64,000 nt of DNA from Micromonospora sp. C28SCA-DRY-2. Lineage in GTDB: Bacteria > Actinomycetota > Actinomycetes > Mycobacteriales > Micromonosporaceae. This document shows, one piece after another, positions 1-53,617 of the stretch. Made by a program: the position numbers and the translations under genes. The notes beneath the pieces are model-generated. The model was not told where the DNA came from and made no database searches. It worked only from the letters and a program-made list of their open reading frames with translations. Numbering within the stretch: the stretch's first letter is position 1; each line of letters begins with the position of its first letter. The DNA lies in assembly GCF_030519475.1 (NCBI RefSeq), contig NZ_JAUMKD010000001.1:1364001-1428000 (forward strand), written 5' to 3'.

Positions 1-478
1 TCGTGAAGATCAGGAAGATCGCCACGATCGCCAGGAACTGCGGGAACATCTGGATCAGCAGCAGGGTGAGCAGCCCGATCCGCCGGCCGGCGAAGCGCAT
101 CCGGGAGAAGGCGTACGCGGCGAGCGCGGAGAGGAAGATCGACACGAAGCTCGCCGTGCCGGCGATCAGCAGGCTGTTGAGGAACCAGTGGCCGAAGGCG
201 GTCCGGTCGAACAGGTTGCCGAAGTTCTCGAACGACACGCCCTCGGTCGGCACCAGCTCGGTCGAGGAGAGCGTGCCGCGCGGGTTCAGCGCCGCGGAGA
301 GCACGAACAGGATCGGGAAGAGGCTGAACGCCACCGCCAGCACCCCGACCAGGTGCCGCCAGCCGACCTGGCGGAACCAACGGCCGCGCTGCCCGCCCCG
401 GGCGTTGCGGTTGGCGACCGGCGCGCCGCCGCCCGTGTCGCCGGCGGCCCGGACAGCGCTGCTGCTGAGGGTGCTCAC
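1..478 (-). CDS. malG: Maltose-type ABC transporter permease MalG (3' end cut by window edge)
   Basis: Second inner-membrane permease of a maltose/malto-oligosaccharide ABC importer, expected to pair with the MalF-like protein encoded just upstream. Only the first 159 codons are inside the window. The start is GTG at 478, eight bases after GGAAGG and overlapping the stop of the last upstream mini-ORF (GTGA). After about 40 polar residues come a membrane segment (HLVGVLAVAFSLFPILFVL), a periplasmic stretch with the MalG-like phrase ALNPRGTLSSTELVP, then segments beginning WFLNSLLIAGTASF and GLLTLLLIQMFPQFLAI, which are typical of MalG/GanQ permeases. The EAA loop lies beyond the window. The gene is third in the malE-malF-malG operon but is separated from malF by four tandem repeats, so its translation may depend on the repeat-encoded mini-ORFs. 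The assignment is firm at family level; the exact sugar is inferred from the neighbouring alpha-glucosidase. Confidence 0.9.
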   Translation of the reverse strand, partial: MSTLSSSAVRAAGDTGGGAPVANRNARGGQRGRWFRQVGWRHLVGVLAVAFSLFPILFVLSAALNPRGTLSSTELVPTEGVSFENFGNLFDRTAFGHWFLNSLLIAGTASFVSIFLSALAAYAFSRMRFAGRRIGLLTLLLIQMFPQFLAIVAIFLIFT

Positions 479-702
479 CGGAGCCACCTTCCGTTCGCGA
501 CTGCGGGGCTCGCAAGCTCACTCCTCGCGCTCACCGGAGCCACCTTCCGTTCGCGACTGCGGGGCTCGCAAGCTCACTCCTCGCGCTCACCGGAGCCACC
601 TTCCGTTCGCGACTGCGGGGCTCGCAAGCTCACTCCTCGCGCTCACCGGAGCCACCTTCCGTTCGCGACTGCGGGGCTCGCAAGCTCACTCCTCGCGCTC
701 AC
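473..702 (-). repeat. Four tandem 56-bp repeats, each a coupled 19-codon mini-ORF, between malF and malG
   Basis: Four identical 56-bp units begin at 473, 529, 585 and 641, with a partial fifth (GCTCAC) at 697-702. Read on the minus strand, every unit begins GTGAGC and encodes MSARSELASPAVANGRWLR followed by TGA; that TGA overlaps the GTG of the next unit (GTGA). The malF stop (TGA, 699-701) overlaps the first GTG in the same way, and the last unit's TGA overlaps the malG GTG. Each unit also carries GGAAGG eight bases before the next GTG, a good Shine-Dalgarno sequence. Because 56 is not a multiple of three, each copy steps the reading frame yet leaves a coupled start behind. I recall similar dispersed repeats in Micromonospora genomes, but could not check this. 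Confidence 0.9.
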
Positions 703-2339
703 GAGTACACCTCCTCCTGCTTGCGGGTGCGCCGGAAGCTGATCGCCGAGACCGTGGCGACGATCGCGAAGATGAAGATCGACACCGCCGCGGCCATGCC
801 GAACTCCGCACCCTGGGCGCCGAACGCCAACCGGTAGGTGTAGGTGATCAGCAGGTCGGTGGCCCCGTTGGTCGGGTTGTCGGCCGGGAACGGCCCGCCC
901 TCGGTGGTCAGCCAGATCGCGTTGATGTTGTTGAAGTTGTACGCGAACGACGCGATCAGCAGCGGGGAGAGCGCGACCAGCAGCAGCGGCAGGGTGACCG
1001 ACCGGAACGACTGCCAGGGCGACGCGCCGTCGACCGAGGTGGCCTCGGTCAGCTCGCGCGGGATCGCCTGCAACGCGCCGGTGGCCACCAGGAACATGTA
1101 CGGGTAGCCGAGCCAGAGCTGCACCAGCAGCACCGCCGCGCGGGCCGTCCAGTCCTGGCCGAACCAGTCCACGCCGAGCCCGAACAGGTTGTTGACCAGG
1201 CCGAAGTCGGTGTTGAACATGTCCCGCCAGACCAGCAGCATGGCGAACGACGGCATGGCGTACGGCAGGATCAGCAGCACCCGGTAGAGGTTGGTGCCGC
1301 GCAGCCGGGGCGAGTGCAGCGTCAGCGCGATGGCCAAGCCGAGCAGGAAGGTGAGCCCGGTCGACCCGATCGCGAAGGCGAAGTTCCAGACCAGCGTGCC
1401 GAAGAACGGGCCGGAAATGGCGGGCTCGGTGAGCACCCGGGCGAAGTTGTCGAACCCGACGTTGACCTTCCAGCCCTGCGCCAGCCGTTCCCCGTCGGCG
1501 GCCACGAAGGCGCCGCTGGACTCGTCAGCGGTCCACGTCTTCCCGCTCTCGGCGTCCCGGACGCAGTCGCAGCCGGCGTCGTACGCCCGCATGGCCTTGC
1601 CCTCGTAGGCGCGGGTGAGGCCGGTGGACCGGATGGCGCCCCCGGCGGTCGGCACGACCAGGTCGGTGATCTCCTGGCTGCGGGCGCCGGCCTGGCCGAA
1701 GTTCAGCACGGTGTAGCCGTCGGCGGCGGTGACCTTGCCACCCGGGGCGACGGTCACGTCGGCCGGGTCGAGCCGGCGCAGCCCCTCGGCGTCGCCGACC
1801 GAGACGGTGCCGGTGGCCGGGTCGGTGACCAGGAAGACCAGCGGGCCGGTGGCGGGATCGCCGGTGGTGGCCACGGAGAGCGCGTACTCGGTGGAGCCGG
1901 GGACCTGCTGCACCGAGGCGGTCTGGATGGCGACGATCGCGTCGTCCTTGCTGCCGCGGTGCCCGTCGCCGAAGTTCGTGAACGCGGTGCTCGCCGTGTA
2001 GAGCACCGGGAAGACCTGGAAGGCGATCAGGAAGAGCGTGCCGGGGACCAGGTACTTGGCCGGGACGTGCCGGCGGGTGAGGTAGAGGTAGAACAGTCCG
2101 GCGGTGGTGACCGCCAGCAGGGCCAGCCCGGCCCACTTCTCGGCCTCGATGAGCGGGAAGGCCGCCCAGACCGCGATCCCGGCCACCAGGCCGAGCAGGA
2201 CCACCTTGACCAGCAGGCCGGTCACGGTGATCGGCGCGTGGTTCCGCGCGGTACGGGACGAGCGCGGGAGCCCGGAGCCGACGGGCTCCCGGCCCGGGAC
2301 CTGCTGGGCAGGTCCCGGGCCGGACAGCGGCGTGCTCAT
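699..2339 (-). CDS. malF: Maltose-type ABC transporter permease MalF
   Basis: Inner-membrane permease of the malto-oligosaccharide importer, 546 aa. Three N-terminal membrane segments lie roughly at residues 35-115 (for example LLVKVVLLGLVAGIAVWAAF). They are followed by a periplasmic domain of about 160 residues between the third and fourth segments, the hallmark of MalF as opposed to shorter sugar permeases. The C-terminal half carries the permease core with the EAA loop (EATSVDGASPWQSF...LPLLL, near residue 430) that docks on the ATPase. No ATPase gene is present; in actinomycetes a shared MsiK-type ATPase encoded elsewhere usually serves such systems. The start ATG at 2339 overlaps the malE stop (TAATG), so translation is probably coupled. 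A strong hairpin lies just after the start. The stop at 699-701 opens the 56-bp repeat array. Confidence 0.93.
   Translation of the reverse strand: MSTPLSGPGPAQQVPGREPVGSGLPRSSRTARNHAPITVTGLLVKVVLLGLVAGIAVWAAFPLIEAEKWAGLALLAVTTAGLFYLYLTRRHVPAKYLVPGTLFLIAFQVFPVLYTASTAFTNFGDGHRGSKDDAIVAIQTASVQQVPGSTEYALSVATTGDPATGPLVFLVTDPATGTVSVGDAEGLRRLDPADVTVAPGGKVTAADGYTVLNFGQAGARSQEITDLVVPTAGGAIRSTGLTRAYEGKAMRAYDAGCDCVRDAESGKTWTADESSGAFVAADGERLAQGWKVNVGFDNFARVLTEPAISGPFFGTLVWNFAFAIGSTGLTFLLGLAIALTLHSPRLRGTNLYRVLLILPYAMPSFAMLLVWRDMFNTDFGLVNNLFGLGVDWFGQDWTARAAVLLVQLWLGYPYMFLVATGALQAIPRELTEATSVDGASPWQSFRSVTLPLLLVALSPLLIASFAYNFNNINAIWLTTEGGPFPADNPTNGATDLLITYTYRLAFGAQGAEFGMAAAVSIFIFAIVATVSAISFRRTRKQEEVYS
2291..2321 (-). 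promoter_or_regulatory. Strong mRNA hairpin at the malE/malF junction, inside the malF 5' coding region
   Basis: GGCCCGGGACCTG pairs perfectly with CAGGTCCCGGGCC across a 5-base loop (13-bp stem), 18-48 bases downstream of the malF start. It is within coding sequence and is followed by no U tract. By analogy with the malE-malF REP elements of E. coli, it could protect upstream malE mRNA from 3' exonucleases and so let the binding protein outnumber the permeases. That role is inferred; only the stem is seen. Confidence 0.5.
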
Positions 2340-52233: not shown

Positions 52234-53522
52234 CCTCAGACGTGCGGAGGTTGCCGGCCGGGTTCGGGCGGTTGTGGGCTGCGCAGACGGTGTCCTCGCT
52301 CGGTGACGGGGTGTCGCATGCCGCGCTGCCGCTGCTCGCGTTGGGGTTGACGCGGGATCCGATGGCGCTCGCCGTCGTCACGGCCGCCGGGACGCTGCCG
52401 TGGCTGCTGTTCGGGGTGCTCGGCGGTGCGCTGGTGGACCGCTGGGACCGCCGGCGCACGATGTGGGTCGTGGACGCGGCGCGTGCGCTGCTGCTCGCGA
52501 TACCGGCGGCAGCGGCCGCGTTCGACGTGCTGAGCATTCCGCTGCTCGCGGCCGTTGCCTTCCTGCTCGGCCTCGGCGGGCTGTTCTTCGACACGGCCGC
52601 CACGGCCTATCTGCCGGATCTGCTCGGCCGCGATCCCGCACTCCTGGAGCGAGCCAACTCCCGGCTGCGCGGGGCCCAGACCGCCATGTCCGGCTTCGCG
52701 GGGCCGCCTGCGGGCAGTGCGCTGCTCGCGCTGGGGCGGGCGGTTCCGCTGCTCGCCGACGCGCTGTCGTTCGCGCTCTCCGCACTGCTCGTACGGTCCC
52801 TGCCCGCCGTGCCCCGGCCCGTACCGCAGGTCCGTGAGTCGCTGCTTCGGCAGGCGCGGGCCGGGGCCTCGTACGTCTTCCGGGACCGGTTGCTGCTCGG
52901 GCTCGCGCTGCGCCCGGCGGTCGGGAACGTCGCCTTCCTCGCCGTGGGGACCGTCCTCGCCCTCTTCGCCCACGAGCGTCTCGGCATCGGCGCCTTCGGC
53001 TTCGGTCTGCTCCTCACGGCGGAGGCCACCGGCGGCCTGCTCGGCGCGGGCATCGCCTCCTTCCTCGGCCGACGGCTCGGCACCGGCACCGCGCTCACCT
53101 GCACGGCCGCAGCCGAGGGACTCGCGATCTTGGGCCTGGCCGCCGCCCCGAACCCGTACGTGGCCGGGCTCGCGCTCGCCGTCTGCGGCGCGGGCATGGG
53201 CGCCACGATGGTGCTCGGCCCCTCCCTCCGACAGGCGATCGTCCCCGCCCACCTGATGGGCCGGGTCGCCTCCACCTCCCGCATGCTCGCCATGTGCGCC
53301 GCCCCGTTCGGCGCCTTCCTCGGCGGCTGGCTGGCCACCACCTACGACGTACGCACCCCGCTCTACACCGCCGCCGGCCTCCTCCTCGCCATGACCGCCG
53401 TCACGTCGACCATGACCACCAACCGCCGAATCGAGGCGGCGCTACGTAGTTCTTCCGACCGGGAGCGCCCGGCACAGGACAGCCACCCCGCCCCGCTGAC
53501 CGATGCCGTCATCGCTGCCTGA
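52230..53522 (+). CDS. MFS transporter (drug-efflux type) coupled to an ArsR regulator
   Basis: Major facilitator superfamily protein of 430 aa with twelve predicted segments, in the antibiotic/multidrug-efflux type seen beside ArsR-HTH regulators. Motif A is LVDRWDRRRTMWVVDAARA after helix 2; the N-terminus RLPAGFGRLWAAQTVSSLGDGVSHAALPLLALGLT is typical of macrolide-efflux-like (MefA/MDR) exporters. The GTG start overlaps the regulator stop. The last codons (LTDAVIAA, stop) lie in a 23-bp tandem repeat, so the C-terminus is prone to length change. Confidence 0.92.
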   Translation: MTSDVRRLPAGFGRLWAAQTVSSLGDGVSHAALPLLALGLTRDPMALAVVTAAGTLPWLLFGVLGGALVDRWDRRRTMWVVDAARALLLAIPAAAAAFDVLSIPLLAAVAFLLGLGGLFFDTAATAYLPDLLGRDPALLERANSRLRGAQTAMSGFAGPPAGSALLALGRAVPLLADALSFALSALLVRSLPAVPRPVPQVRESLLRQARAGASYVFRDRLLLGLALRPAVGNVAFLAVGTVLALFAHERLGIGAFGFGLLLTAEATGGLLGAGIASFLGRRLGTGTALTCTAAAEGLAILGLAAAPNPYVAGLALAVCGAGMGATMVLGPSLRQAIVPAHLMGRVASTSRMLAMCAAPFGAFLGGWLATTYDVRTPLYTAAGLLLAMTAVTSTMTTNRRIEAALRSSSDRERPAQDSHPAPLTDAVIAA

Positions 53523-53566
53523 CCGATGCCGTCATCGCTGCCTGACCGATGCCGTCATCGCTGCCT
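53498..53566. repeat. Three tandem 23-bp repeats across the MFS stop codon
   Basis: The unit GACCGATGCCGTCATCGCTG followed by CCT occurs at 53498, 53521 and 53544 without mismatch. The first copy encodes the end of the MFS protein, whose TGA (53520-53522) spans the first junction. Because 23 is not a multiple of three, copy-number change can alter the C-terminus. Confidence 0.92.
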
Positions 53567-53617
53567 GATCGGTGCACCCACCAGCTCCAGAAGTCACGAC
53601 TGCCGGAAAGGCACCAG

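Follow-up and report, generated by a model that had tools for sequence, protein, structure and literature searches.

A dispersed mini-ORF repeat at start/stop overlaps between co-directional genes of the Micromonospora group

Between a malF-like and a malG-like ABC permease gene of Micromonospora sp. C28SCA-DRY-2 lies a four-unit tandem array whose repeat belongs to a family dispersed through genomes of the Micromonospora group. Its reading as an inserted repeat that preserves coupling, of a kind known from mycobacteria, is well supported, and we consider it probable that the element is a mobile - or once-mobile - mini-cistron which inserts at coupled junctions and leaves the coupling preserved. 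Throughout, the window is the whole stretch of DNA analysed, 64,000 nucleotides long.

Results

A perfect four-unit array between malF-like and malG-like genes

TRF run on the window reports a tandem repeat at 473-702, with a period of 56, 4.1 copies and 100% matches. Read on the minus strand (479-702), its four units do not differ by a single letter: unit 1 occupies 647-702 (core 702-661, tail 660-647), unit 2 591-646, unit 3 535-590 and unit 4 479-534. Each unit encodes the peptide MSARSELASPAVANGRWLR in a mini-ORF of 19 codons plus TGA (702-643, 646-587, 590-531 and 534-475, respectively), with every stop overlapping the start after it in a GTGA; as a 60-nt mini-ORF shares 4 nt with its successor, the period is 60 - 4 = 56. 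The minus strand runs from the malF-like gene (...TACTC GTGAGC...) through the four units to GTGAGCACC... of the malG-like gene. The former gene (699-2339, minus strand) has its TGA (701-699) inside the first GTGA of the array (702-699), whilst the latter (1-478, minus strand, cut by the window edge) starts at the fifth, closing GTGA (475-478, minus strand), within which the TGA of the last mini-ORF also falls. A further GTGA, at position 14 of each core, is a stop in another frame. A Shine-Dalgarno-like (SD-like) stretch, GGAAGGTGG, lies in the tail of unit 1 (652-660, minus strand) and recurs in every unit. The sequence-only reading of this DNA had described the same coordinates, four perfect 56-bp units, 19-residue peptide and GTGA overlaps, all of which TRF and our minus-strand reading confirm.

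The protein encoded upstream is MalF-like, matching NCBIfam PRK10999.1 at 341.9 bits (under the cut-off of 392) and Pfam BPD_transp_1 at 59.2 bits (cut-off 26.4). Downstream, the MalG-like protein matches NCBIfam PRK10998.1 at 57.7 bits on 159 aa, under the cut-off of 261, and Pfam gave no match for this truncated protein. A 21-base core motif occurs at four places in the 64-kb window, all of them in the array; with 0.03 matches expected by chance, a chance origin is rejected, as is an assembly artefact, since the element recurs at many junctions across many species. Elsewhere in the window, at 53496-53575, a separate 23-bp unit, CTGACCGATGCCGTCATCGCTGC, is present in 3.5 copies at 96%, upstream of an ATG.

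A repeat family of the Micromonosporaceae

Units of the family follow a common plan: a core from GTGAGCGCGAGGAGTG via a variable middle to AGCCCCGCAGTCGCGAAC, 42 bp in the window array and longer in variants, and then a variable tail, roughly 12-17 nt long, that contains the SD. Searching the window's own genome for the array gave 40 places, and a profile search of the own-genome stretches gave 42 arrays of 1 to 4 units. The sample of family loci comprises at least 119 loci matching an exact 32-bp motif, with 132 arrays by profile search; as this motif begins GTGAGC, intact 5' ends are favoured among them. The named loci among the matches listed (80/119) are mostly from Micromonospora, and also from Salinispora, Verrucosispora and Plantactinospora; going by these, the range of the family is the Micromonosporaceae. 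A 19-base core motif (at most one mismatch) was found in 160 of 300 sampled genomes of this family, that is, in every one of the 106 from the window's genus, as well as in 54 of the 194 others. Outside the family but in the same class, 3 of 342 sampled genomes hold one core near-match each, and just a single genome of the same order in that class-wide sample has one. Searches of the open-licence PMC literature gave no description of the Micromonospora-group repeat among the matches listed.

The SD-like stretch mostly lies 8-9 nt upstream of the next start (72/118), and a pattern search found none in 21/118. Family-wide, anti-SD pairing over the 20 nt that precede the closing start averages -10.29 kcal/mol, as opposed to -7.13 for shuffles. 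The ribosome site that had been claimed for each unit is thus upheld as a putative one, by the SD-like stretch in the tails and by this pairing.

Most arrays lie between co-directional genes and open on the upstream stop

The flanks (240 bp) were scored with a codon model for which 294 long ORFs served as the training set. After dropping 10 of the 174 arrays, all at family loci and too near the locus end, 164 could be classified. Two genes on the repeat's own strand flank 146 of these (35/42 in the own genome, 111/122 in others), and a same-strand gene lies downstream in 158. Considering that 467 of the 658 adjacent gene pairs at the family loci are co-directional within 300 bp, insertion between neighbours in random orientation predicts roughly 36%, whereas 89% is observed. 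The upstream gene stops on the TGA of the array's first GTGA in 111/146; its stop otherwise falls at the second GTGA of the unit (5), elsewhere inside the array (5), before the array (18) or beyond it (7). At the other end, 131/146 have, after their last core, a DTGA at which the downstream gene can start in its own frame. The own genome, which is less biased by the motif, gives 25/35 arrays opening on the upstream stop and 26/35 with a measured closing DTGA. The sequence-only reading had proposed scoring the share of copies at coupled junctions, and these are the shares; copies away from such junctions, or with a randomly broken frame, which it took to speak against its claim, were looked for and form a minority.

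Several arrays depart from this pattern. Eighteen of the 164 are not flanked by two same-strand genes: one of them, L172, is a rare array antisense to its neighbours. L111 and L187 have a common flank, with a coding signal on neither side of the array, and in L070, one of the seven with a stop beyond the array, the array lies inside an open frame.

The ends themselves are informative. In 27 arrays the opening reads GTGA and the closing ATGA, and the empty rph-rdgB site of relatives is ATGA in 14/17; from this, the GTGA at the 5' end would seem to come with the element, and the start at the 3' end to be that of the host. The array ends show no duplicated target base. Exceptions at the opening are L295 (ATGA) and L299 (CTGA).

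Could this be a mobile element which merely cuts at DTGA, in an HUH-type, single-strand manner, such that coupled junctions are just the survivors of selection? The repeat may resemble HUH elements in its manner of transposition: the site is always DTGA and strand-specific, and the D base of the target is not duplicated in the 27 arrays above. However, DTGA occurs 735 times in the window (both strands), against 4-nt overlaps at 5 of its 34 co-directional junctions, and cutting of this sort should leave both orientations at non-coding sites, whereas one array in 164 is antisense to its downstream gene. We regard this explanation as unlikely; it concerns movement, and can be compatible with a mini-cistron that preserves coupling.

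Repeat-free junctions of relatives are mostly ordinary overlaps

Among 121 genomes searched for the malF-malG junction, 37 had no full-length malF match, leaving 84 orthologous junctions. Eighty are plain 4-nt start/stop overlaps (76 recognised by script and 4 by eye: L197, L245, L246 and L248), three carry the element (the window's own, L128, and L244 and L247), and L140 holds a different, 36-bp insert. With three of 84 junctions filled, the element is dispensable there. The three filled junctions have different tails, and in L247 the second unit is in frame with malG, such that the repeat now starts the protein; taken together, this suggests separate insertions.

Three further junctions, each with n=30, are more evenly divided: nuoM-nuoN has 14 filled, 15 empty 4-nt overlaps and 1 other; rph-rdgB has 9, 17 and 4; and the M16-peptidase junction 12, 18 and 0. 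The first two names come from NCBIfam and the third, that of the downstream gene, from Pfam; family searches gave no match for the protein upstream of the M16-peptidase junction. The five other rows are decayed copies (L267, L293 and L301) and CTGATG sites (L297 and L308). At nuoM-nuoN, L253, L258, L264 and L272 have composite inserts, with further repeat-like sequence between the two DTGA ends. Shortened, decayed copies (L259 and L267 at nuoM-nuoN, L293 at rph-rdgB) retain DTGA at both ends.

Of the 25 own-genome arrays whose opening GTGA holds the upstream stop, the window's and L161 were handled apart, and the other 23, chosen for this opening, were compared in four relatives. The 77 classified rows comprise 48 empty 4-nt overlaps, 14 filled and 15 other; for 20 of the 22 of these junctions that yielded data, one relative or more has an empty 4-nt overlap. 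Among the rows classed as other, some contain short inserts of different kinds. Repeat-free rows are therefore 4-nt overlaps in 48/63, compared with a background of 110/467 co-directional junctions in the loci and 5/34 in the window (binomial tail ~2e-18, a figure that ignores relatedness and the choice of arrays). That a cassette can be inserted or multiplied whilst keeping the start/stop overlap, as had been suggested, agrees with this: DTGA continuity is found at many junctions, and the empty sites are ordinary 4-nt overlaps.

A second type of insert, GAGCGAGCG...GCGAACCAT, is found at the same kind of overlap in L394, L354, L411, L414, L391 and L140, at junctions orthologous to repeat-bearing ones. 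Of the six, three retain the geometry of a relay, two are fused in frame and one falls at 1 mod 3. The strict motif is present in 7/41 same-genus genomes, and was not found in the window's own.

One might suppose that arrays are kept as a regulatory rheostat, in which the number of units sets ribosome supply and tunes malG and other downstream genes. Copy number does differ between loci of the own genome and, at one junction, between species; furthermore, the length of a tandem repeat upstream of fpg1 in M. tuberculosis is reported to be related to its mRNA level (PMC2734929). Yet that effect is modest and at the mRNA level, the element is absent from 80/84 malF-malG junctions and from about half of the genomes at the other three, and its neighbours are of unrelated function (68 downstream clusters). 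We find a rheostat hard to believe in. No result here supports the suggestion of the sequence-only reading that the array serves to tune malG expression, or that its level is set by copy number.

Reading frame and growth of the arrays

From the last unit to the downstream gene, the frame falls into classes 2:0:1 mod 3 as 104:14:5 (n=123). Class 2 corresponds to a relay and class 0 to a fusion in frame; in class 1, which is rare, a ribosome on the unit would miss the next start. Collapsing orthologues, by counting each combination of downstream-gene cluster and distance once, leaves 54:9:5 (n=68), and the internal periods give 54:27:4 (n=85). The claim of the sequence-only reading that the array depends on overlap geometry, and not on one continuous frame, therefore holds for most periods but fails for the 27/85 that are in-frame fusions and the 4/85 at 1 mod 3. 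Closing distances range from 38 to 69, mostly in frame-keeping steps, with 56 in 66 arrays and 59 in 29. Descent from one ancestral length partly accounts for the frame bias. Frame-keeping length variation is nonetheless the best sign in this analysis that the units are translated, which the frame statistics favour. The frame is a relay to the downstream gene in 100/123 measured arrays; the complete relay is present in 86/146 arrays overall and 19/35 in the own genome, and all links are intact in 26/43 multi-unit chains with a DTGA at both ends. An internal stop occurs in 4/63 unique 56-bp units. There is no clear signal of peptide conservation or codon position, with positions 1-32 partly fixed by the search motif.

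Within arrays, tails are 98.3% identical (33 pairs), as against 46.4% between junctions, from which we conclude that an array grows when whole units are duplicated locally.

A non-coding DNA or RNA element - a protein-binding site, hairpin or processing site, with open frame and DTGA ends incidental - would suit a core much more constant than the tail and free of codon periodicity, as well as single-unit folds of -19 to -21 kcal/mol (given here without shuffle comparison), but is very improbable in view of the strongly non-random frame to the downstream gene, the mostly frame-keeping length changes, the weak consensus fold of the alignment (-4.26 kcal/mol), at which a strong shared RNA fold is rejected, and the array being covered by no Rfam family. 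The one Rfam match was sub-threshold and outside the array, and family identity on that basis is rejected.

Discussion

From the position and orientation of the arrays, their empty sites, the frame bias and the homogeneity within arrays, we infer that the element moves, that its units may be used by ribosomes, and how both could come about. A mobile or once-mobile mini-cistron would insert at an NTGA junction, where a gene's stop overlaps the next start, and would place there a mini-ORF whose frame runs from the first GTGA through to the closing DTGA. As the frame runs between these two points, a ribosome that finishes the upstream gene could begin again on the mini-ORF, terminate at the GTGA that follows and then reach the start of the downstream gene, in a serial termination-reinitiation aided by the SD in each tail; after insertion, the element would multiply locally as whole units. 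Its main effect would probably lie in leaving the operon unharmed, and not in regulation. More tentatively - and here we are readier to doubt than to assert - ribosomes may serially reinitiate through up to four 19-codon cistrons, and the element may either target start/stop overlaps or survive at these alone because translation makes such sites safe. If both parts of this joint reading were true, coupled junctions would be a standing niche for more than one repeat family per genus, and copy number would be a by-product dial on the downstream gene.

Whatever the mechanism, clean filled and empty sites make the insertion point, the retained start codon and the frame directly readable. Natural arrays of 1-4 near-identical mini-cistrons are material for measuring the efficiency of repeated reinitiation, a question of translational coupling. 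Caution is also due in annotation, where a unit may be mistaken for a short gene or for an N-terminal extension.

How does the repeat compare with known systems? REP/BIME-type extragenic repeats are short, dispersed and multi-copy, with a conserved palindromic hairpin and an associated REP-type transposase. The Micromonospora-group repeat is likewise short, dispersed and multi-copy; however, it is in register with translation at start/stop overlaps. On the hairpin, the observation is the weak consensus fold reported above, a value obtained without shuffle control or covariation test. In bicistronic designs and NTGA coupling, ribosomes could be supplied by a short ORF that ends in an overlap with the following start, according to a 2025 review (PMC12548453). 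Unlike in such designs or in natural NTGA coupling, the short ORF here belongs to a dispersed repeat and in some arrays occurs several times in a row.

The closest parallel is with the mycobacterial interspersed repetitive units (MIRU), for which the original work is reportedly that of Supply et al. 1997. Two papers put these units at 46-101 bp, with 41 loci in M. tuberculosis H37Rv (PMC3914561), or at 40-100 bp (PMC2734929). According to the review, they appear to be mobile and to insert at start codons, their internal ORF is coupled at a spacing of -4, and the host gene is likely affected minimally (PMC12548453). The likeness extends to each of these elements: short, dispersed and often tandem units of variable copy number, as in the 42 own arrays; insertion at start codons, here with filled and empty sites in relatives; and a coupled internal ORF, here with a DTGA start after the last core and a relay in most measured arrays. 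The difference lies in the bacterial family. Given that our comparison is by description, and that the core motif is nearly absent from the 342 sampled genomes of the class outside the Micromonosporaceae, we have not filed the repeat as a MIRU. By analogy, it apparently works like one in a separate family, and would thus be a second lineage of the arrangement known from mycobacteria, widespread in its own genus.
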